Assembly (NCBI GenBank): GCA_014376985.1
Contig: JACMQM010000384.1
Location: 1 to 35,698, forward strand
Source of the DNA: Cytophagaceae bacterium
GTDB taxonomy: Bacteria > Bacteroidota > Bacteroidia > Cytophagales > Cytophagaceae
Reading direction: 5' to 3'
DNA length: 35,698 nt
The notes beneath the pieces were generated by a model, which did no database searches, was not told where the DNA came from, and worked only from the letters and a program-made list of their open reading frames with translations. Each line of letters opens with the position of its first letter. The stretch's first letter is position 1. A program made the translations under genes and the position numbers. Below are positions 2,235 to 19,632 of this stretch, in pieces.

Positions 2235-3134
2235 TTAACTGTTTGGTGTGATGATACCATCTGAATATTGTTTGAGTTTCATGTTGACCAGTATTCGATG
2301 CAAGGTCTCCGCTGCCAATCCATGCAAGACCAATCGGTAAGCGGCATTATAAGTCGTTTCAGGTACCATGGGATGTTTGTTGTTGATCAATCCCATGTGC
2401 GCAGGTGCATTTAAAATCTGCGAGGTGTATATCGCAATCGTTTCATCAAGTTGTAAAGAATTAGACGCTCTGACGAAGTCATTGGAGGTGAGGAACAATT
2501 GATAGAACGGCGTAAATAACTCAATAGCGGAACGCAGGTCCAGCACGTTTGTCCACCGTTTAGGGAAATCGATGTGGTTAAATTGATCCTCTGTCATCAT
2601 GCTTAAGTCTAAGTTTTTTTTTCCTTTGATGCCGATGTTCTTCTCTCTCAATTGCGAATTAAGACGAATGACAAAGTTGTACAAGTTCAAGTCATGTTTT
2701 AAAAACAGGTCATCTTTGATGGCATTGAAATCATAAGGTTTCAGTGGACTCGTTACTATCTCAATGTTCTGAATGTTTTTTGAAATGAATTGCATGATCT
2801 CACTTCCTACGTGAAAATGGCGGAAGATCAATAAATTCGCATCCCGACTGACAAAGTGTTTCAATCCCCAGGCTAAAATACGGTGCAGTATTGTTGACGA
2901 ATTGATAAGGTTGGGAAAGAAAAACTTAAAGACATGGATAAAGAACATCACGACTTTAGAAAGCACGGTTATGAAGGGCAATAAGTATCGTTTGGACTTT
3001 GAATTATTATCCCGCATCAAACTGATTTTCGTTTTATCATTGATGGGAATGCTGCTGTCAAGGTACATCGCCAGCCAGGGATTAGGATCTCTGTCGTCGT
3101 GCGTGGCAAATTGTAATTCTGGATCTTTGTTCAT
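2235..3134 (-). CDS. Uncharacterised 299-aa protein of the lipid-like cluster
   Basis: I do not recognise this family with certainty. The product begins MNKDPELQF, followed by a short region with Asp-Pro-Asn-Pro-Trp. Residues about 50-75 are strongly hydrophobic and aromatic (for example VVMFFIHVFKFFFP) and could be a membrane-associated helix. Downstream are conserved-looking His/Arg/Asp positions (RHFHVGSE near 105, HGLAAETLHRIL near 275). No standard cofactor motif is visible. It follows the ketoacyl synthase fusion gene on the same strand after 234 bp that contain a structured repeat, so co-transcription is possible but not shown. The setting suggests a role, perhaps membrane-associated, with the lipid-type enzymes. 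Confidence 0.7.
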   Translation of the reverse strand: MNKDPELQFATHDDRDPNPWLAMYLDSSIPINDKTKISLMRDNNSKSKRYLLPFITVLSKVVMFFIHVFKFFFPNLINSSTILHRILAWGLKHFVSRDANLLIFRHFHVGSEIMQFISKNIQNIEIVTSPLKPYDFNAIKDDLFLKHDLNLYNFVIRLNSQLREKNIGIKGKKNLDLSMMTEDQFNHIDFPKRWTNVLDLRSAIELFTPFYQLFLTSNDFVRASNSLQLDETIAIYTSQILNAPAHMGLINNKHPMVPETTYNAAYRLVLHGLAAETLHRILVNMKLKQYSDGIITPNS

Positions 3135-3368: not shown

Positions 3369-5216
3369 TTAATAGTTTCCTAGTTCTTCCAATTGCATTT
3401 TGTAAAGCTTCGCCGTCGTCTTCGCTGTTTTTATAATTTGCTTCGCCAGTTCCATATCCAATGCCGGATGATTCAGCGCTTGCTCCAGGTTCTTAAAGTG
3501 ATTTTCATCCGCTTCGCCGTGGTAGATAAAGAAAGAGACTTGATTATCCGCTAAGTTCAACTGTGCTTGCATGAGTCCTCCCCAGTCCGCTGCCAGACGT
3601 TTTCCTATGCCTTCAATGATGAACATGGCTCCTAATAAATCAATTGGATTCGCTTTGCTGGCTTGTTGGAAAATGAAGGAAGTCAGCGCCACACTACCGA
3701 TGTTTTTTTCGCCGTTGCGGATGATGTTTAAGTCTTCTCCCAAGTTCTCATAATTTTTTTCCAGGATCTGATAGTCTTTGTGTTCTGCTGCGGTATGTTT
3801 GATAAAGGCAGAACGTAATTCAAAGAGTTCAATGTCTATGTTAGACGCTGCTCTAGAGATCCACTGCGAACCGTCGATTACTTGTTGACGCATGTCGTGC
3901 AACAACAGGATATAATCTTGTCGGCTGAGTTTACCGTCGTGTATCTTTTTAACGATGGGCACTTTGTATAATTGTGATTCAAAATCAATCCATACCTGCG
4001 CCAATTGTCTTACCAGCCATTCTGATGTTTCTGTTTTTTTCAATATTAATTCCGGTGCTTCGATCTCGCGTGTTGCTAAGGACGTTTTTATTTCTTCTTG
4101 ACCTTCCACGGTCAATTGCATGAAAGATGTGATGAAGCGGCCGCTCTCTGGTACCATGCACACTATTTTATCGCCCACTTTAAGTTTACCGGAATACATC
4201 AATTCTTCCAGCATGATATAGATAGAAGCAGAACCTGTATTTCCTTTAGATGTAAGATTGCTAAACCATTTTTCACTGACGATTTCACCACCACCTTTTT
4301 TCATAAGTTCTTTGATCGGGTCCTTGAAATACTCAGAAGAGTAGTGACAGCACAGCCAATTCACTTGATCAACTTTAATTTTACCTTTATCGATGAGTTC
4401 GAAATAATGAGCCACGCCAGTCTTTACTACCTGATCCAACAAGCGTACGTCTTGCTTCAGGTTGATGGCTCCGGCTTTGGAAGCTGATTCATAATCAGGA
4501 TAATCCAGCCAGGTCATTTCGTTTTCGTTTTGATTGTCATTTTTACCCGTATACATGCACAAGGGAAATTCATTGGCATGTGATTTCAAATCGATCCAAT
4601 CTATGCGGAGGGAAATGCCTTTGGTTGATTTTTTATTTTCCAATACCATCGCACCGGCACCATCAGAAAGCATCCAGCGAAGAAACTCTGTATCGAAGGG
4701 AACCGATTTTACTTTCTGCGCATCGAAGCGGGAGCTTTTAAACAGTCTGCTTGGAAATTCACTGCCCACACATACCGCATTTTGTTTGTCTCCGCATTTA
4801 ATTTGAGCATAAGCATTCTTAAGCGCCATCATACCGCTGGCGCAAACACTTTGAAAGCTGGCCACTTCACAATTAGAGAAATCGAGTTTACTATGTACCA
4901 TACTGGCAAAACCAGGTACCGGTAAATCTCCTTGCGTAGTACCGGTAGACAAGAGCTCAATGTCTTTTCCTTTTAACGTACTTCTGGTGATGGCTTGTTC
5001 TGCCGCCAGAGCCGCCATCTGTGCATTGGAATGCGTACTTTCCTGTTGTTTGTTGAGCGCGTAGTATCTGTTTTGAATACCGTTCTGCTTGAGAATACGA
5101 TCTTTGATCCCACTGCTTTTTCCGTTTATTTTTCCTAAATATTCTTCCATCTCCGCGTTGTTGACAGGAGCGTTAGGCAAGAATGTCCCAGATGAAGTGA
5201 TATAGACTTTGTACAT
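3369..5216 (-). CDS. Ketoacyl synthase III fused to a heme-oxygenase-like di-iron domain
   Basis: This 615-aa product is about twice the length of an ordinary KAS III. Residues 1-370 form a thiolase-fold ketoacyl synthase III with an intact triad: Cys125 (in SVCASGMMAL), His291 (in LCCHYSSEYF) and Asn326 (in KGNTGSAS). Residues about 395-610 are all-helical and carry heme-oxygenase-like oxidase (HDO) hallmarks: His474/Glu478 in KHTAAEHKDY, Glu535 in MFIIEGIGKR, and His566-x3-Asp570-x2-His573 in YHGEADENHF. The last spacing matches the third metal-binding helix of HDO enzymes such as SznF and CADD as I recall them. Where UndA-type enzymes have E-x2-H, this protein has E-x2-D (Asp481), so metal loading may differ. 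Inferred role: acyl condensation followed by oxidative processing of the acyl product. The gene starts 11 bp after the hydroxylase gene ends, so they are probably co-transcribed. Confidence 0.88.
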   Translation of the reverse strand: MYKVYITSSGTFLPNAPVNNAEMEEYLGKINGKSSGIKDRILKQNGIQNRYYALNKQQESTHSNAQMAALAAEQAITRSTLKGKDIELLSTGTTQGDLPVPGFASMVHSKLDFSNCEVASFQSVCASGMMALKNAYAQIKCGDKQNAVCVGSEFPSRLFKSSRFDAQKVKSVPFDTEFLRWMLSDGAGAMVLENKKSTKGISLRIDWIDLKSHANEFPLCMYTGKNDNQNENEMTWLDYPDYESASKAGAINLKQDVRLLDQVVKTGVAHYFELIDKGKIKVDQVNWLCCHYSSEYFKDPIKELMKKGGGEIVSEKWFSNLTSKGNTGSASIYIMLEELMYSGKLKVGDKIVCMVPESGRFITSFMQLTVEGQEEIKTSLATREIEAPELILKKTETSEWLVRQLAQVWIDFESQLYKVPIVKKIHDGKLSRQDYILLLHDMRQQVIDGSQWISRAASNIDIELFELRSAFIKHTAAEHKDYQILEKNYENLGEDLNIIRNGEKNIGSVALTSFIFQQASKANPIDLLGAMFIIEGIGKRLAADWGGLMQAQLNLADNQVSFFIYHGEADENHFKNLEQALNHPALDMELAKQIIKTAKTTAKLYKMQLEELGNY

Positions 5217-5227
5217 GGTTTCTAAAG

Positions 5228-5956
5228 TTATTTGAGTTTCTTTTGAAAGGCGAAGATTTTATCGAGAACCGGACTGGCAAATCCATATTGATTCGTGTTT
5301 TTATAATGATGTGCGGAATGTCTGGTACCGAACAATTTCCAATTTCTTCCGCTTCCATTTCCAAATCTGTAATTATAATGACCGGCATAATTCAATAAAA
5401 TGCTGACCAATGGATAAAGGAAAATGGCGGTAGCAGAAAGAGGAATGAATAAGATAATGGTGACTTCTACTGTGCTCAGTAGGAACGCTTCTACCGGATG
5501 AAAACTGAAGACCGAGTATACGGTAGGTATTTTCGATACATGGTGCATATAATGAATATAGCGGTAGAATATAGGCCAGTGCATGACACGGTGCACGAGG
5601 AAGAAATGAATCTCATTCCATATAATCAGTGCCGCAAGACCGACAAGTGTTACCCAAAGACTGTCTGAAAGCAGTACGACGAATCCTGTTCGTACAAAAT
5701 AAATAATAGGAAGGCTGGAGAATCCAAATATCAGGATGGAGCGAAACGAATTTTTTATTTCGTAACGGATATTTTTATTCGGCTCAGGTGTCGACTGTAT
5801 CTGCTGGAGTGCTTTTATTTTTTCAAGTACTTTACAGGTATATCGAAAAAGAGGTCCTAGTATAAAATACAATAAAAGGAAATAAATGACGGTAAGTACA
5901 TACACCTGGAGGTAAGAGTAGTCCGTGATAAAGTGGTGTGTAAATTCCTGGATCAT
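5228..5956 (-). CDS. Fatty-acid hydroxylase / sterol desaturase superfamily membrane enzyme
   Basis: The 242-aa product has three or four hydrophobic segments and the eight-histidine di-iron pattern: HRVMH (122-126), HYMHH (135-139), His193 in AGHYNY and HSAHH (213-217), plus SFHPVEA at 151-157. These are the defining metal ligands of the superfamily that hydroxylates or desaturates fatty acids, sterols and carotenoids in membranes. Length is normal for bacterial members. The ATG at 5954-5956 was chosen because a 62-bp leader then separates it from the palindrome at 6018-6035. The gap to the ketoacyl synthase gene is 11 bp. A small dyad at 5976-5990 (GCTTA, five bases, TAAGC) lies in the leader. 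Confidence 0.88.
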   Translation of the reverse strand: MIQEFTHHFITDYSYLQVYVLTVIYFLLLYFILGPLFRYTCKVLEKIKALQQIQSTPEPNKNIRYEIKNSFRSILIFGFSSLPIIYFVRTGFVVLLSDSLWVTLVGLAALIIWNEIHFFLVHRVMHWPIFYRYIHYMHHVSKIPTVYSVFSFHPVEAFLLSTVEVTIILFIPLSATAIFLYPLVSILLNYAGHYNYRFGNGSGRNWKLFGTRHSAHHYKNTNQYGFASPVLDKIFAFQKKLK

Positions 5957-10479: not shown

Positions 10480-11703
10480 ATGCCAAAACTATATTTCAAT
10501 ACAACACAATATGCAGACCGGCCATTGCACTATGGCAAGCTTCCTCCATGGCTTTTCAATAGAATGGCATTGCTCGGTGGTGCCATAGTGGAGTCCATTG
10601 TATTAGAGTATGGTAAGTCGGCTGTATTAAGCAGGCTCAGTGATACCTTTTGGTTTCAGGCTTTTGGCTGTGCGTTGGGAATGGATTGGCATTCTTCCGG
10701 CATTACAACTTCCGTCATGGGTTCTTTGAAAACAGCTGTTGATCCTAAGTTTAAAGAGTTGGGGATTTATATCTGTGGAGGCAAAGGAAAACATTCTACA
10801 CAAACACCACATGAATTGCTTTTATTATCCGATCGTACGGGATTAAACGGGACAGAACTGGTGCGCTCCAGCAAGCTTGCCGCTAAAGTTGACAACACAG
10901 CTATACAAGATGGATTTTAATTGTACCTGCACAATTTTATTGTAACAGACGAAGGCGAATGGGCCGCGGTTCAACAAGGGATGAACGACAGTAATGGCAT
11001 GGCTCGCCGTTACTGTCGGCATTCCAATACAGTAAAGTCTTTTGTAGAAAATCCACATGCTTTTATTTATGGAAAAAATCAGGGAGAGATTTTGAACTTC
11101 GTAGATTTAAATGCCGCTGAATCAAAGACCGGAATATTGAACATCATTAAAGAGAATCCCGCGAAAATGTTTTCGGAAATACAAAAGGTCATCATGCCTT
11201 CACATCATGAAGTACGCGCATCAAATGTCAACTTGAAACGTTTGGGCAGCATGCTCGATTTAGCGCATGATAGACACTTACAAGATTTTGAATCCTTATT
11301 GATGTTGGAAGGAGTCGGTCCAAGAACGATACAATCCCTGGCTTTAGTACGCGAAGTGATTCATGGTACACTTACTCGGTTTAGTGATCCCGTCCGTTTT
11401 TATTTTGCACATGGAGGCAAAGATGGACATCCATTTCCTGTTCCTATTAAAGTGTACGATGAGACGATCGCTATATTAAGGTCCTCTGTTGAGAAGGCCA
11501 AAATAGGTGATACCGATAAACAGTTAGCCATTAAAAATTTAACATTAGCCGCTCAAAGCATGGAGAAAATTTTTGAACCTGATCCCAATGCTTTTGATCG
11601 TGTGATCGCGAAAGAACGTGCTGAATCCTATAAGTATGGCGGACGTACAGTTTTCAGAAAATCGAAGCCTCCAAAAGATGATGGTCAACTTAATTTGTTC
11701 TAA
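10480..11703 (+). pseudogene. DUF763 protein interrupted by one in-frame TAA
   Basis: Two segments in one frame, 146 codons from the ATG at 10480 and 260 codons after the TAA at 10918-10920, together make a full-length DUF763 protein (about 407 codons). Left part: PLHYGKLPPWLF, CALGMDWHSSGITTSV, then GGKGKHSTQTP. Right part: WAAVQQGMND, ARRYCRHS, LLMLEGVGPRTIQSLALV and FAHGGKDGHPFPVP. At the break the sequence reads AIQDGF, stop, LYLHNF; family members, as I remember them, have DGYQLYHH here, so CAA to TAA is the simplest change. The codon after the stop is TTG, which might allow restart. DUF763 is uncharacterised; VGPRTIQSLA resembles a helix-hairpin-helix DNA-binding motif, which fits the DNA-repair neighbours. 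Confidence 0.8.
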
Positions 11704-13775: not shown

Positions 13776-14417
13776 TTATTGAATACGAATCAATTTGTCT
13801 TCTACCACCGCAATCACCTGATCATTATCCAATACTTCTATGACATAACCACCTGTAAATTCTCCGAAGCTCGGAAGTATAGCTTGCTGTTCTCCAAAGT
13901 AAAAACAGGGAAACTTTAATCGTTGGTTGGCAAGTCCTCTTAATTTTACCACTGGATGGATATGGCCGGATATGACATATTCATCTTTTACCATCAAAGG
14001 TTTCGGATGATGAGTAAAAGTAAAAGCGCCCATTCGTAATTCTTTATCATAAACAACTATGCAAATCTCTTTGTATTTTTCAAGTGGGAATTCGTCGTGG
14101 TTTCCTAACACCAAAATCATATTTACTTCCTTGTATTGATTGCGCCAGTCACAGAAACGATCCCATTCCTCATTGATGTCGCTATGAAATAAATCACCGA
14201 CAAAGATGATGCATTTGACATCGTGACCTTGCATCATCGTATCCAACCGCTCAAAGTTTTCTTCCAATGCTTGTTGCGGAACAGCAATACCGGCCTTTCT
14301 GAAATGTGTGATCTTTCCTATATGCAAATCACTGATCAGCAACGTTCGTTCTTCTTCCCACCAGATGGCTTTTTGCTCCAGTAAAGTGAACGTATTATTT
14401 TTTAGCCTGAGCTGCAT
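13776..14417 (-). CDS. pdeM: Ligase-associated metallophosphoesterase (PdeM/MPE)
   Basis: The 213-aa product shows all calcineurin-like motifs: Asp30-x-His32 (SDLHIG), GDLFH (74-78), GNHDE (105-109), the HH in FTHHP near 136 and GHIHP (151-155). Length and the start LLISDLHIGKITHFRKAG(I) match the DNA ligase-associated metallophosphoesterase family, whose characterised member (MPE) is a manganese-dependent DNA endonuclease/phosphodiesterase. The ATG overlaps the end of the helicase gene by 23 bp, so translation is probably coupled. It is the last gene of the repair cassette. Confidence 0.9.
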   Translation of the reverse strand: MQLRLKNNTFTLLEQKAIWWEEERTLLISDLHIGKITHFRKAGIAVPQQALEENFERLDTMMQGHDVKCIIFVGDLFHSDINEEWDRFCDWRNQYKEVNMILVLGNHDEFPLEKYKEICIVVYDKELRMGAFTFTHHPKPLMVKDEYVISGHIHPVVKLRGLANQRLKFPCFYFGEQQAILPSFGEFTGGYVIEVLDNDQVIAVVEDKLIRIQ

Positions 14418-16872
14418 CTTCTTTTTCGAATTGTTTGATCATTTTATTAACACGGTCTTCCAGTTTTTCCGAAGATAATTGTTCCCTTAATCGATCTACC
14501 AGTATAGGAAAGGCGAAAGGAGTGGGACTGGGTGTTTGTTTAATTAATATACGCTGACGATGGATACGTTCCAACGCTTTTCTCAATCTTGTTTCTTCCA
14601 GTTGCTGATCCAGTACTTCCTGATAAGCTTGTTTGATGAGCATGTTCTTCGGATCATGAGTACTGATCACATCAAATAGTAAGGAAGAGGAAGCCTGCAA
14701 ATGTTTCGTCTTAACAAATTTCCCCGGATAGCCTTGAAAGAGCAAGCCGGCTATGGTTGAAATCTCACGAAACTTTCTTCTGGCCATCTCGGTGGAATTG
14801 ACACTGCGTTGTATGTCATCCAACAAGTGAGTAGTAGAAAACAAATCATGTTCTGACAATACGTGTTGAATATCTATTTCAGTATCTGAAAGTAATTCAA
14901 ATCCATAATCGTTCATGGCCATAGAGAACGTAATCGGTACAATCTTACTGATGCGGTAGGCGAGTAGAGAGGCCATGCCTTCATGCACCAATCTTCCTTC
15001 AAAGGGGAAGAAGAACAAATGATAACCGTCTTTCGTCTGACAGCGTTCGATCAGGAATTCATGTTCATTGGGAATAGCAGATCGTTCGCTTTGTAATTTT
15101 AAGATCGGTTGTAGCTTTTCCATTTCCGGGCCTGGTGATTCATTCGTTAAAGCATCGTTTAACCTTTCGCGAATAAAACGTGAAAGTTCTGAAGACAAAG
15201 GTACTCTACCACCCATCCAGCGCGGGACGATACCGCTTTTCTGTTTGGATTTTCGTACCTGTACCGTCATTTCTCTTACACGCACAAACTCCAGATTTAA
15301 TCCCGCAAAGAAAAACACAACGCCCGGTTTCATCCAGGAGATGAAATCTTCTTCTATCGTTCCAAGAAATTTACCGCCCATATACTTTACTTGGAGCACC
15401 GCATCAGAAACAATAGTACCTATGCTCAGGCGATGACGCAAGGCTACCTTACGGCTATTGACTGTGAATTTGTCGCCTTCTATTTCTACTCGTTTAAATT
15501 CATCATAGGCTAGTAAAGAAGGACCGCCTGTAGTGATAAAACCCAGTACCCATTGCCATTCATCATAGGTCATGTATTGAAAGCAAAAGGTGGACTTGAT
15601 TTCATGTGCGAGTTCTTCCTGTTCAAATCCATCACCTACTGCCAGCGTTACCAGATACTGAGCGAGTACATCAAAGCATTGAACCAATGGTGTACGATCT
15701 TCCTGGATATTTTTATGAACACCTTCTCTTAAAGAAACCCCTTCGATCAATTCCAGTGAATGGGTTGGAACAAAATAGATTTTACTGGTAGCACCAGGTT
15801 TATGTCCGCTTCGTCCTGCGCGCTGCAGGAAGCGAGAGATGCTTTTTGGACTGCCCACCTGTATCACCGTTTCTACCGGATGAAAATCAACACCTAAGTC
15901 TAAACTGGATGTACAGATGACGAGCTTCAATTTTTCTAAATGTAAATTCTCTTCCACCCAATCGCGAAGCTCACGATCTAGTGAGCCATGATGTAAAGCC
16001 ATGATGCCGGCCATGTCCGGATATTTTTCGAGAATGAAACGGTACCAGATTTCTGTTTGCGAGCGTGTATTGGTGAATAGTAGAGTAGTAGTACTCGCCA
16101 TGACAATCGGCATGACTTTATCTAATAGATTAATACCCAGATAACCTGCCCAGGGAAGCTTTTCTACTTTGTCCGGTAATACCGATTCTACTGTTATTTT
16201 TTTCTGAATGTTGGAGCGAACGATAACTGTTTGTTCTTTCGCTATATTCATTCCGGTCAATACTTGCAGTGCTTGTTCCAAGTTACCGATAGTCGCTGAC
16301 ATGCCCCAGGTGCGAACGGCAGGTTGGAGATGACGTAAGCGGCAAAATGCCAATTCCGTTTGCACACCGCGCTTGGTGCCTAACAATTCATGCCATTCAT
16401 CGGCAATGAGTATTTTCAGGTTTTTGAATAAGTCCGTATTGTTTTTAGTAGCAAATAGCAAATGCAAACTTTCCGGTGTAATCAGCAGGACTTCTGGCAT
16501 CGCTTTTTTCTGCGCTGCTTTTTCTTTCGCACTCACATCGCCTGTACGCACACCTACCTGCCAAGGAATCTCTAATTCGTCACAAGCCTTTTGCAGATTG
16601 CGTCGAAGGTCTTTCGTTAACGCACGCAGGGGGGTGATCCACAAAACCTGTAATCGGGAATTCTTTTTTGTTTTATAATCGGGATTGTTATTGATGTAAT
16701 CGATGAGGACAGGTAAAAATATACCGTACGTTTTTCCTGAACCGGTTGGCGCATTTAACAAACCACTCTTGCCTTCCAAGAAAGCAGCAATGGTCTCCTG
16801 CTGGAAGTCCGCGAGCTTCCAGGATTTGGCTTTCATCCAAGACGAAATTATTTTTTCTCCAGGTGTGGACAT
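14395..16872 (-). CDS. Ligase-associated DEXH-box DNA helicase (Lhr-Core type)
   Basis: The 825-aa product carries SF2 motifs in order: Walker A APTGSGKT (41-48), TPLRAL, motif II DEWH (158-161), SAT (192-194), TNTRSQTE, CTSSLDLGVDF and QRAGRSGH (350-357), then a long C-terminal winged-helix/Lhr-type region. This matches Lhr-Core helicases encoded beside an ATP-dependent ligase, which move 3' to 5' on single strands. A longer frame starts at 16917, but its first 15 residues would be encoded inside the structured repeat at 16883-16970; MSTPGEK at 16872 is therefore the better start. It overlaps pdeM by 23 bp at its 3' end. Confidence 0.92.
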   Translation of the reverse strand: MSTPGEKIISSWMKAKSWKLADFQQETIAAFLEGKSGLLNAPTGSGKTYGIFLPVLIDYINNNPDYKTKKNSRLQVLWITPLRALTKDLRRNLQKACDELEIPWQVGVRTGDVSAKEKAAQKKAMPEVLLITPESLHLLFATKNNTDLFKNLKILIADEWHELLGTKRGVQTELAFCRLRHLQPAVRTWGMSATIGNLEQALQVLTGMNIAKEQTVIVRSNIQKKITVESVLPDKVEKLPWAGYLGINLLDKVMPIVMASTTTLLFTNTRSQTEIWYRFILEKYPDMAGIMALHHGSLDRELRDWVEENLHLEKLKLVICTSSLDLGVDFHPVETVIQVGSPKSISRFLQRAGRSGHKPGATSKIYFVPTHSLELIEGVSLREGVHKNIQEDRTPLVQCFDVLAQYLVTLAVGDGFEQEELAHEIKSTFCFQYMTYDEWQWVLGFITTGGPSLLAYDEFKRVEIEGDKFTVNSRKVALRHRLSIGTIVSDAVLQVKYMGGKFLGTIEEDFISWMKPGVVFFFAGLNLEFVRVREMTVQVRKSKQKSGIVPRWMGGRVPLSSELSRFIRERLNDALTNESPGPEMEKLQPILKLQSERSAIPNEHEFLIERCQTKDGYHLFFFPFEGRLVHEGMASLLAYRISKIVPITFSMAMNDYGFELLSDTEIDIQHVLSEHDLFSTTHLLDDIQRSVNSTEMARRKFREISTIAGLLFQGYPGKFVKTKHLQASSSLLFDVISTHDPKNMLIKQAYQEVLDQQLEETRLRKALERIHRQRILIKQTPSPTPFAFPILVDRLREQLSSEKLEDRVNKMIKQFEKEDAAQAKK

Positions 16873-16882
16873 GTAATTATTT

Positions 16883-16970
16883 GCGTTAGCGATTGAGCCA
16901 TTGTTTGAGCTCTTCACGCTTTTTCAGCGTGAAAGCGAGTGGCGAAAGCGCGGCCCGAAGGGAAACGCCC
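16883..16970. repeat. Dispersed structured repeat, copy 2 (inverted relative to copy 1)
   Basis: The reverse complement runs from GGGCGTTTCCC to CGCTAACGC and matches 3231-3317 at about nine positions in ten. The hairpin ACGCT-GAAAA-AGCGT replaces CCGCT-GAAAA-AGCGG of copy 1, and the pairing GCG/CGC replaces GGG/CCC. The CCC-TTC-GGG hairpin contains a UUCG-type loop. It lies in the 151-bp gap between ligase and helicase genes, 10 bp upstream of the helicase start, where it could affect helicase expression. Confidence 0.8.
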
Positions 16971-17023
16971 TTATCATAAAGCTTCTGACGCTTATTCACT
17001 TTATAATTTTAATAAAATAAATT

Positions 17024-18616
17024 CTATTTATATGCTTTCAAAATACTTTTCAAATTATCCAACGTATCAGCTTCTTCCAACTTCTTGTCTTTTCTCCAAT
17101 TTAAAATACGAGGAAAGCGTACCGCTATACCTGACTTATGACGAGAGGATTCATTGATGCCTTCGAACCCGATTTCAAATACGAGTTGAGGTTTCACCGT
17201 ACGGACAGGACCGAATTTTTCAATGGTGTTCTGTTTGATGTAACGATCCACTTCTCTAATCTCTGCATCCGTTAAACCGGAATAAGCTTTAGCAAAAGGA
17301 ATCAGTTTATCCTTTTCCCAAACGGCGAAGGTATAATCGGTATACAGCTCCGCTCTACGCCCGCTTCCTTTCTGCGCGTAAACCAATACTGCGTCAATAC
17401 TGAGTGGATCCACTTTCCATTTCCACCAGTCTCCTTTTTTTCTGCCGGTCAGGTATTGCGCTTGTTTACGTTTGATCATGAAACCTTCCGCCGCCTGTTC
17501 TCTCGATTGCAGATGTAAATTTCTCAATTCATCCCATCCATCAAAAGTCAGCAAAGGTGAAATTTTAAACGCCCCTTTGATTTCCGTTTGTTCAAATAAG
17601 TCTTCCAAAATTTTACGTCTTTCTTCCTGTGGTTTTTGACGAACATCTTGTCCTTCGTATTCCATCACATCATAGCCAATGAAGGCTACAGGTGCTTCCG
17701 TTAAAATCTTCTTGGTAATATTTTTTCTGCCGATGCGCGTTTGTAAAATATTGAAGGGGAGTGGACGATCGTTTTCAAAACAAACAATCTCTCCATCCAA
17801 TACGGTGCCTGAAGGGAGTTGTGTCCTCAGCGATTCCAGTTCAGGAAACTTTTCCGTTACCAATTCTTCTCCGCGTGACCAAATGTATAATTCATTGTTG
17901 CGCACAATCACTTGAGAACGGATGCCGTCCCATTTCCATTCGGCAAACCAATCTTCCGGTTGCCCCAAGCTTTCCAATCCACCTTCTAAGCCATAAGCCA
18001 AATAAAAAGGATAAGGCTTCGATGTAGTATCTCCAGTATTTTCACCATAAATCAATTCTTTGTAGGACGAATGGTAAGGATCCCATTGACCCATCACGCG
18101 GTGTGCAACGACAGCGGAAGTCATGTCACTGACTTCACCAATGGCTCTCACCACCAGCGTTTGAGAAACACCGATGCGAAAACTACCCATGAGTAATTTA
18201 TTAAAAACAAATGTTTCATAGGTCGATAATTGTTTCCAGGCTTCAAGGATCAATTGTTTTTTCTCTTCATCTGTTGCTTTGTTCAATTGCGTGAAGTAGG
18301 CAAACCATTCACTTAATGTTTTCTCAGAGGTAGAAGTATTAACGGGTAAAATCAAAGAAATAGTTTCAGCCAAATCACCTACACTGCCATAACTTTCCCT
18401 GAACAACCACATCGGAATGTTCGCCTGTTCGATGGCCCATTCCTGTACCTGCGTCGTCTTAATCTTACGAGGAGGCCTGCGTCCGGTAAACAGAGCCAAA
18501 GCCCAGATTTTATCTTCATCTGGTGCGGACAGAAAATAAGCTTTCAACAAAGCGACTTTATCATTCGTCTTTGTTGTGCGGTCGAGTTCAAGAAAGAGGT
18601 TGGTAAATCGTTTCAT
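17024..18616 (-). CDS. ATP-dependent DNA ligase (ligase-associated cassette)
   Basis: The 530-aa product has an N-terminal DNA-binding domain (about 1-200), then the nucleotidyltransferase core: motif I EWKWDGIR with Lys228 as the adenylated residue, motif III VLDGEIV (272-278), FIGYDVMEYEG, motif IV AAEGFMIKR, motif V KWKVDPLSIDAVLV, and an OB-fold with RFPRILNWRKDK. This matches the ligase of the four-gene exonuclease/ligase/helicase/MPE cassette. No LigD polymerase or Ku gene is in the window, so classic NHEJ is not indicated. Its ATG overlaps the exonuclease TGA by 4 bp (ATGA), so translation is probably coupled. Confidence 0.93.
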   Translation of the reverse strand: MKRFTNLFLELDRTTKTNDKVALLKAYFLSAPDEDKIWALALFTGRRPPRKIKTTQVQEWAIEQANIPMWLFRESYGSVGDLAETISLILPVNTSTSEKTLSEWFAYFTQLNKATDEEKKQLILEAWKQLSTYETFVFNKLLMGSFRIGVSQTLVVRAIGEVSDMTSAVVAHRVMGQWDPYHSSYKELIYGENTGDTTSKPYPFYLAYGLEGGLESLGQPEDWFAEWKWDGIRSQVIVRNNELYIWSRGEELVTEKFPELESLRTQLPSGTVLDGEIVCFENDRPLPFNILQTRIGRKNITKKILTEAPVAFIGYDVMEYEGQDVRQKPQEERRKILEDLFEQTEIKGAFKISPLLTFDGWDELRNLHLQSREQAAEGFMIKRKQAQYLTGRKKGDWWKWKVDPLSIDAVLVYAQKGSGRRAELYTDYTFAVWEKDKLIPFAKAYSGLTDAEIREVDRYIKQNTIEKFGPVRTVKPQLVFEIGFEGINESSRHKSGIAVRFPRILNWRKDKKLEEADTLDNLKSILKAYK

Positions 18617-19632
18617 GATTCTGTTGTTTCTGTTGCCGCTTCTTCCTCTTCACCATACATTGTTTTCACTTCCGCCGATTCGACACCACGTTCGTTAAGC
18701 CATCTTGAAAAAGTATCTGTGTATCCATGCGTGACATACACTTTTTCAGCGCCTGTAGCATCGATGGCAGTATTCAGTTCATCCCAATCCGCATGATCAG
18801 AAAGTACAAATCCTCTGTCGATGGATTTACGGTTCTTCGCGCCGCGTATCGCCATCCAGCCGGAGCAATACCCGGTAGAGTAAGGCTCAAAACGTTTGAG
18901 CCAGGGAGTGTTTAATACTGAACCGGTGGCGAAAATCAAGGCACCCTGAAAGTCGCTTTTGCTCGCATTATTAACCGGCGGAATATAAGGCAAATCAAAT
19001 CCGGCAGTACGCAATTGTTCATTCACATTATAGATGGCACCGTGTGCGAAAACAGGTTGATCAAAAGGCTGTAAGTTCTTGATGAGTCGCTGCATCTTTC
19101 CCAAGGCATAACCCATGAGGATGCTGTTCTTACCTTGCAATTTATTTTGTAAAGCCCAGACTTTGATCTCGTCTATGATTTCCTGTTGTGGTTTCCATTT
19201 GTAGATCGGCAAACCAAAAGTAGATTCCGTGATGAATGTATGGCACTTGATCGCTTCGAAAGGAGGACAAAACAAATCGTCCTGTAATTTATAATCACCG
19301 CTGGCCACCCAGATTTCTCCTTGTTGTTCTACTCTTACCTGAGAAGAACCGATGATATGTCCGGCGGGATGGAGAGAAAAATTTACCCCGTTGATGGTAA
19401 AAGATTCTCCGTATTCCAGTGTTTGTAACGAGATATCTGATCCGAGTCGCATGCGAAGAATCGGCTCAGAATCCTTATGTGCCAGGTAATGTTGGCAACC
19501 CCACTTGGCATGGTCGCTGTGAGCATGGGTAATGATGGCGCGCTCCACTGGTTTCCAGGGATCAATATGAATGTCCGCCGAGGGACAGTAAATACTGGAA
19601 GCCGTAAAGGAGAGGAGTTCATTGCGTTTCAT
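18613..19632 (-). CDS. Ligase-associated MBL/beta-CASP DNA exonuclease
   Basis: The 339-aa product has the metallo-beta-lactamase motif HAHSDH (36-41), LHPAGHIIGSSQV, SGDYK, and the beta-CASP-type LSDHADW and THGYT near the end. This order marks the SNM1-like exonuclease group found beside ATP-dependent ligases. A manganese-dependent nuclease component of such cassettes has been characterised biochemically. It is the first gene of the cassette in transcription order and overlaps the ligase start by 4 bp. The C-terminal 15 residues are Glu/Thr-rich and probably disordered. Confidence 0.92.
   Translation of the reverse strand: MKRNELLSFTASSIYCPSADIHIDPWKPVERAIITHAHSDHAKWGCQHYLAHKDSEPILRMRLGSDISLQTLEYGESFTINGVNFSLHPAGHIIGSSQVRVEQQGEIWVASGDYKLQDDLFCPPFEAIKCHTFITESTFGLPIYKWKPQQEIIDEIKVWALQNKLQGKNSILMGYALGKMQRLIKNLQPFDQPVFAHGAIYNVNEQLRTAGFDLPYIPPVNNASKSDFQGALIFATGSVLNTPWLKRFEPYSTGYCSGWMAIRGAKNRKSIDRGFVLSDHADWDELNTAIDATGAEKVYVTHGYTDTFSRWLNERGVESAEVKTMYGEEEEAATETTES

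Follow-up and report, generated by a model that had tools for sequence, protein, structure and literature searches.

The window analysed here (35,698 nucleotides, contig JACMQM010000384.1 of the Cytophagaceae genome GCA_014376985.1, hereafter G000, which comprises 389 contigs) carries on its minus strand, at 3369–5216, a gene for a single chain of 615 amino acids in which a StlD/DarB-like ketosynthase is joined to a heme-oxygenase-like oxidase, as indicated by the open reading frame, Pfam, NCBIfam, and an AlphaFold model. A fusion of a ketosynthase with an oxidase had been proposed by a sequence-only reading of this DNA, and both the frame and the residues singled out there (Cys125, His291, Asn326, Glu478, Asp481, Glu535, His566, Asp570, and His573) are confirmed in the translation; the plus strand of the same interval is closed by many stops. 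The ketosynthase domain spans residues 1–370 (4107–5216, minus strand; NCBIfam, StlD match, and alignments) and the heme-oxygenase-like domain residues 394–615 (3372–4037, minus strand; AlphaFold, fold matches, and Pfam PF14518). Pfam ACP_syn_III_C and Haem_oxygenas_2 (PF14518) both score above their cut-offs, the latter with 31.2 bits against 28.9. The closest named relative carrying the fusion gene is a Cytophagaceae MAG, with 89% identity.

Upstream of the fusion gene, at a distance of 11 bp, lies a gene for a membrane protein of the fatty-acid-hydroxylase family (5228–5956, minus strand, 242 amino acids; Pfam PF04116, 71 bits, and synteny) with the histidine boxes HRVMH, HYMHH, and HSAHH, and downstream there is a gene for a DUF6999 protein (2235–3134, minus strand, 299 amino acids; Pfam PF22523, 387 bits, alignment, and synteny). 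Immediately ahead of the hydroxylase and fusion genes we also found a Crp-like cyclic-nucleotide-binding regulator (PF00027, 6046–6609, minus strand), whose place is kept in a near relative (L036) and which may regulate the operon; a scan of the fusion operon for promoters and terminators stayed at chance level. Elsewhere in the window, a DUF763 gene (PF05559, 10480–11703, plus strand) is broken by a single in-frame TAA (10918–10920), after which the frame resumes as a second ORF, the interruption being either that of a pseudogene or a sequence error. At 13776–19632 (minus strand) an Lhr-type helicase and an ATP-dependent DNA ligase cluster with two more ORFs in what looks like a known DNA-repair operon.

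The catalytic triad of the ketosynthase, Cys125 (4842–4844), His291 (4344–4346), and Asn326 (4239–4241, all on the minus strand), is intact, and the alignment shows it unchanged throughout the 39 ketosynthases of the group to which this domain belongs. The earlier description of this domain as a KAS III stands in so far as it is a condensing enzyme with a complete triad, but it is no ordinary FabH: NCBIfam scores of 433.7 bits for the StlD/DarB family and 91.5 bits for FabH rule out a generic FabH identity. The score falls narrowly below the curated StlD/DarB cut-off (NF005293, 450 bits) and is far above those of all other ketosynthase families, and the nearest solved structure is StlD (5gk0, E 3.5e-80), aligned over the entire ketosynthase domain. 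E153 and R180, which we take to be the StlD cyclisation residues E154 and R190, are likewise invariant (39/39), and the pair also appears in every other StlD/DarB-type ketosynthase sampled; one FabH encoded by the host genome lacks the arginine equivalent to R180 in the matching motif. The StlD/DarB group makes cyclohexane-1,3-diones and dialkylresorcinols, so that, judging from this kinship, a cyclohexanedione is a likelier product here than a simple beta-ketoacyl chain. Cyclohexane-1,3-diones are intermediates en route to dialkylresorcinols (PMC4414361), and the components listed for the Azoarcus cluster include DarB as cyclase and DarA as aromatase (PMC3949708). Although StlD and the DarB proteins of flexirubin and dialkylresorcinol pathways share with the present domain its full length, its triad, and the E153/R180 pair, this domain is fused to an oxidase, has no adjoining DarA, lies just under the family cut-off, and bears Phe103 instead of His (residue 103 is Phe in 37 of the 39 ketosynthases of its group and His in 13 of 14 Bacteroidota DarB). 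Given the sub-cut-off score and differences such as Phe103, the product may therefore differ from that of DarB. G000 also has an ordinary DarB/DarA locus elsewhere, and the fusion gene is thus a second system in this genome.

The AlphaFold model of the oxidase domain, built with 28 sequences, is well defined (pLDDT 91.7, pTM 0.89) and displays the seven-helix heme-oxygenase fold, bearing out the fold proposed earlier for the C-terminal region. Its top fold match is the uncharacterised Shewanella protein Sden_3740 (3dde; Z 24.4, 2.1 Å, 217 residues), also the only solid match in a profile search of the PDB (E 8.7e-7), which differs from the domain studied here in being unfused and in bearing E-x2-H on core helix 1. 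CADD follows (Z 23.5, 2.0 Å over 208 residues), and then TenA, HrmI (20.2), PqqC, heme oxygenases, UndA (19.2), and FlcD (19.2). UndA is thus on a par with TenA, PqqC, and the heme oxygenases, and the suggested link to UndA-type formation of terminal alkenes, though possible, has so far found no support, UndA being one among many fold matches at about equal distance. UndA, AetD, HrmI, SznF, and FlcD, which are di-metal or mono-metal oxidases, have the same fold but retain the helix-1 His that is Asp here and act on amino or fatty acids; for these five we found no described fusion to a ketosynthase in the literature. The PDB title of the FlcD entry 3bjd is putative 3-oxoacyl-ACP synthase, a name perhaps inherited from ketosynthase–oxidase fusions.

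The putative ligands follow the order E478, D481, E535, H566, D570, and H573. In the model, E478 and D481 fall in helix 462–491, E535 in helix 527–553, and H566, D570, and H573 in helix 557–581, that is, on the three core helices expected from known heme-oxygenase-like di-iron oxidases (HDOs); the idea that they meet at one site is partly upheld by the model, at the level of helix placement. The motifs are H474-x3-E478-x2-D481 on core helix 1 (3774–3797), Glu535 on core helix 2 (3612–3614), and H566-x3-D570-x2-H573 on core helix 3 (3498–3521, all minus strand). Asp481, correctly read before as replacing the usual His, is Asp in every homologue inspected (29 aligned homologues plus eight further Pseudomonadota sequences, L126–L133) and is therefore no quirk of the window. 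H474, E478, E535, H566, D570, and H573 are equally invariant in the 29 homologues and the further Pseudomonadota sequences. There is no His at 3, 7, or 10 residues past E478, and His474 lies one turn ahead of it on the same helix.

D481 and E535 are 54 residues apart, the same distance as between what we take to be His88 and Glu142 of CADD, which places D481 at the His site; His474, seven residues ahead of D481, would then fall where CADD presumably has Glu81. With CADD and NePabS, self-sacrificing pABA synthases of HDO fold, the domain has in common the H-x3-D-x2-H motif and the helix-2 Glu, and it departs from them in the Asp at 481, the His at the Glu81 position, and the ketosynthase fusion. 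The His that lies three residues past the helix-1 Glu in UndA is likewise Asp481 here. Set against the motif E-H-E-H-(D/E)-H (3H/3C) that defines HDOs (PMC11363339, PMC13108848), the first His is replaced by Asp481 and the other five positions match. About 85% of the 150 largest HDO groups keep E-H-X-H-(D/E)-H and some 9% have no strong prediction (PMC11363339), and HDO sites are mostly 3H/3C, with some 3H/4C (PMC13108848). In AetD, where H79 and D76 of H72-x3-D76-x2-H79 are iron ligands and H72 together with E140 held a stray metal in one crystal form, the motif has the same spacing as H474-x3-E478-x2-D481 here (PMC10654658). Other Bacteroidota PF14518 proteins were considered as carriers of the same Asp, but the CADD-like set inspected (L082–L094) retains a Glu...His pair on that helix. 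The conserved residues would be consistent with a putative metal site of 2H/4C or permuted 3H/4C type.

A search for the same domain pair, as had been suggested, recovered the fusion in over 25 further genomes from three phyla, and this recurrence rules out an assembly accident. Fused pairs turned up in many Bacteroidota families as well as in Paenibacillus and Pseudomonadota, and the module as a whole spans Bacteroidota, Pseudomonadota, and Bacillota, either fused or as two adjoining genes (L048, L051, L057, L078, L132, and L133). That the pair is kept across phyla, and also as neighbouring genes, supports the earlier idea that the condensation product is handed to the oxidase. Among 395 Bacteroidota genomes the oxidase domain is found in four, solely inside frames of fusion length. 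The module is rare (about 1–2% of sampled genomes), with identities of 65–80% between Bacteroidota families, and this combination suggests horizontal spread. A single origin of the fusion was rejected, since two ketosynthase trees, which fix neither a root nor whether the oxidase or DarA was the earlier partner, require three to four changes of the fused label; fusion or fission has therefore probably happened more than once. Two Paenibacillus ketosynthases (L049 and L050) stand alone, with no oxidase, DUF6999, or DarA, and group with the fused Paenibacillus ones, probably by secondary loss of the partner.

DUF6999 is the constant companion of this pair, found immediately downstream, or nearly so, in 34 of 35 oxidase-bearing loci; the only one lacking it (L039) stops at a contig edge. 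Each of the nine sampled Pseudomonadota genomes in which DUF6999 exceeds the Pfam cut-off holds ketosynthase, oxidase, and DUF6999 together. The family has many invariant polar residues in the alignment (e.g., R105, H106, H147, D148, D230, H254, H271, and E276). Its AlphaFold model (pLDDT 83) gave no Foldseek match below E 0.001 and no VIA-align Z above 4.5, which by itself does not prove a new fold, and a profile search of the PDB gave no match. The PF04116 hydroxylase gene lies ahead of the fusion in the majority of Bacteroidota loci and, among six fused Pseudomonadota loci, in five. A fatty-acid desaturase is present in L034, with a relative of it in L039, and in L126, and similar histidine-rich frames occupy the desaturase position of L126 in L127, L129, and L131. 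At the place of the hydroxylase, the split ketosynthase and oxidase genes of Gammaproteobacteria are preceded by a His-rich protein of ca. 188 amino acids with hydrophobic stretches and no Pfam match (L048:440–1009, L078:8427–8993, and L133:9441–10007). In one distant locus (L134:1404–5132), three genes in a row encode a protein weakly related to DUF6999, a divergent StlD/DarB-like ketosynthase, and a monooxygenase of the FMO type, as though the oxidase had been exchanged for a flavin enzyme. Control searches with the DUF6999 and PF14518 families also match in Caulobacter vibrioides, so this model organism may carry the module.

We searched the DarA profile in 71 ketosynthase loci, leaving the window's own locus out of the count. 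DarA was present in 30 of them, none with the oxidase, and the oxidase in 35, none with DarA, six loci having neither, although these counts are inflated by related genomes. The DarA gene beside the ketosynthase that characterises a dialkylresorcinol cluster is thus absent from 35 of 35 oxidase loci, and the window's locus likewise has the oxidase and no DarA nearby. Genome-wide, 14 of 19 module genomes lack DarA; of the remaining five, two (G000 and G007) carry it at a DarB locus apart from the module, and in none of the five is there a DarA match on the module's contig stretch. This mutual exclusion, together with the minus-strand orientation, the invariant His474, and the constant DUF6999 partner, goes beyond the sequence-only reading. 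The oxidase belongs to a family unrelated to DarA, the dialkylresorcinol aromatase (PMC3949708), and occupies its gene position beside the ketosynthase. The simplest reading of this pattern is that, once the ketosynthase has made the ring, the oxidase may take over DarA's step or carry out an oxidation equivalent to it.

The account we favour, although we give it slightly less than an even chance, is that of a two-domain enzyme whose ketosynthase supplies a ring on which the metal oxidase acts in place of DarA, with tailoring by nearby proteins. From two fatty-acyl thioesters the ketosynthase domain would build a 2,5-dialkyl-cyclohexane-1,3-dione or some ring closely akin to it. The oxidase domain would bind a pair of metals through H566, D570, H573, E535, E478, and D481, with H474 possibly replacing one of them or serving as a further ligand, and would use O2 to oxidise the ring to a dialkylresorcinol or a more oxidised ring, replacing the aromatase. 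The membrane proteins of the hydroxylase and desaturase families and DUF6999 would tailor the precursor or the product. The module would then probably produce an oxidised ring lipid through a pathway that has yet to be described. Against this account, the exclusion of DarA would be equally expected if the product were a different molecule that can do without an aromatase, one of the canonical metal ligands has been exchanged, and L134 has a flavin monooxygenase at the oxidase's place. Aromatisation of a cyclohexanedione is not known for any HDO.

The same L134 row lends itself to a rather unlikely alternative in which the oxidase hydroxylates instead of aromatising, the ring or alkyl chain gaining oxygen to give a hydroxy-cyclohexanedione, a hydroxyresorcinol, or a quinone-like lipid; known HDOs include oxygenases (PMC13108848) and membrane hydroxylase-family genes often accompany the module, but the L134 ketosynthase is very distant and the DarA exclusion indicates DarA's own step, not an added one. 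Decarboxylation or desaturation by the oxidase of a beta-keto acid or acyl chain from the ketosynthase, to an alkene or ketone as in UndA, is improbable: UndA acts on fatty acids (PMC13108848), it is a fold match, and genes of fatty-acid-modifying families are nearby, yet it is no nearer than TenA, PqqC, or heme oxygenases and retains the His lost here, and the ketosynthase falls in a ring-forming group. Least probable of all is a helical domain with no metal pair, acting metal-free like PqqC or TenA or as a scaffold, since the seven invariant residues from H474 to H573 need not be kept by metal-free relatives, even if PqqC and TenA fit the model as well as UndA and one canonical His position is lost in every member.

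Returning to the ring-oxidising two-domain enzyme, its broadest form is possible but more doubtful, namely that an oxidase of HDO fold with a new set of ligands (2H/4C, or a 3H/4C set in which His and carboxylate have swapped places on core helix 1) takes over from DarA in one chain with the ring-forming ketosynthase and yields a new class of oxidised ring lipids, made together with DUF6999. The parts are of known kinds; what is new, as a variant, is the way they are combined and the set of ligands. In the open literature, with most subscription papers outside the search, we found no description of a ketosynthase–HDO fusion, of the helix-1 ligand change, or of DUF6999. More than 10,000 HDO sequences are available and about a dozen have been characterised (PMC13108848), and for this one the fused ketosynthase indicates which kind of substrate to try. 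The module offers a test of a ligand set for which no description was found in this fold, may represent a second way of oxidising the ring in dialkylresorcinol-type pathways, and places DUF6999 for the first time in a functional setting.
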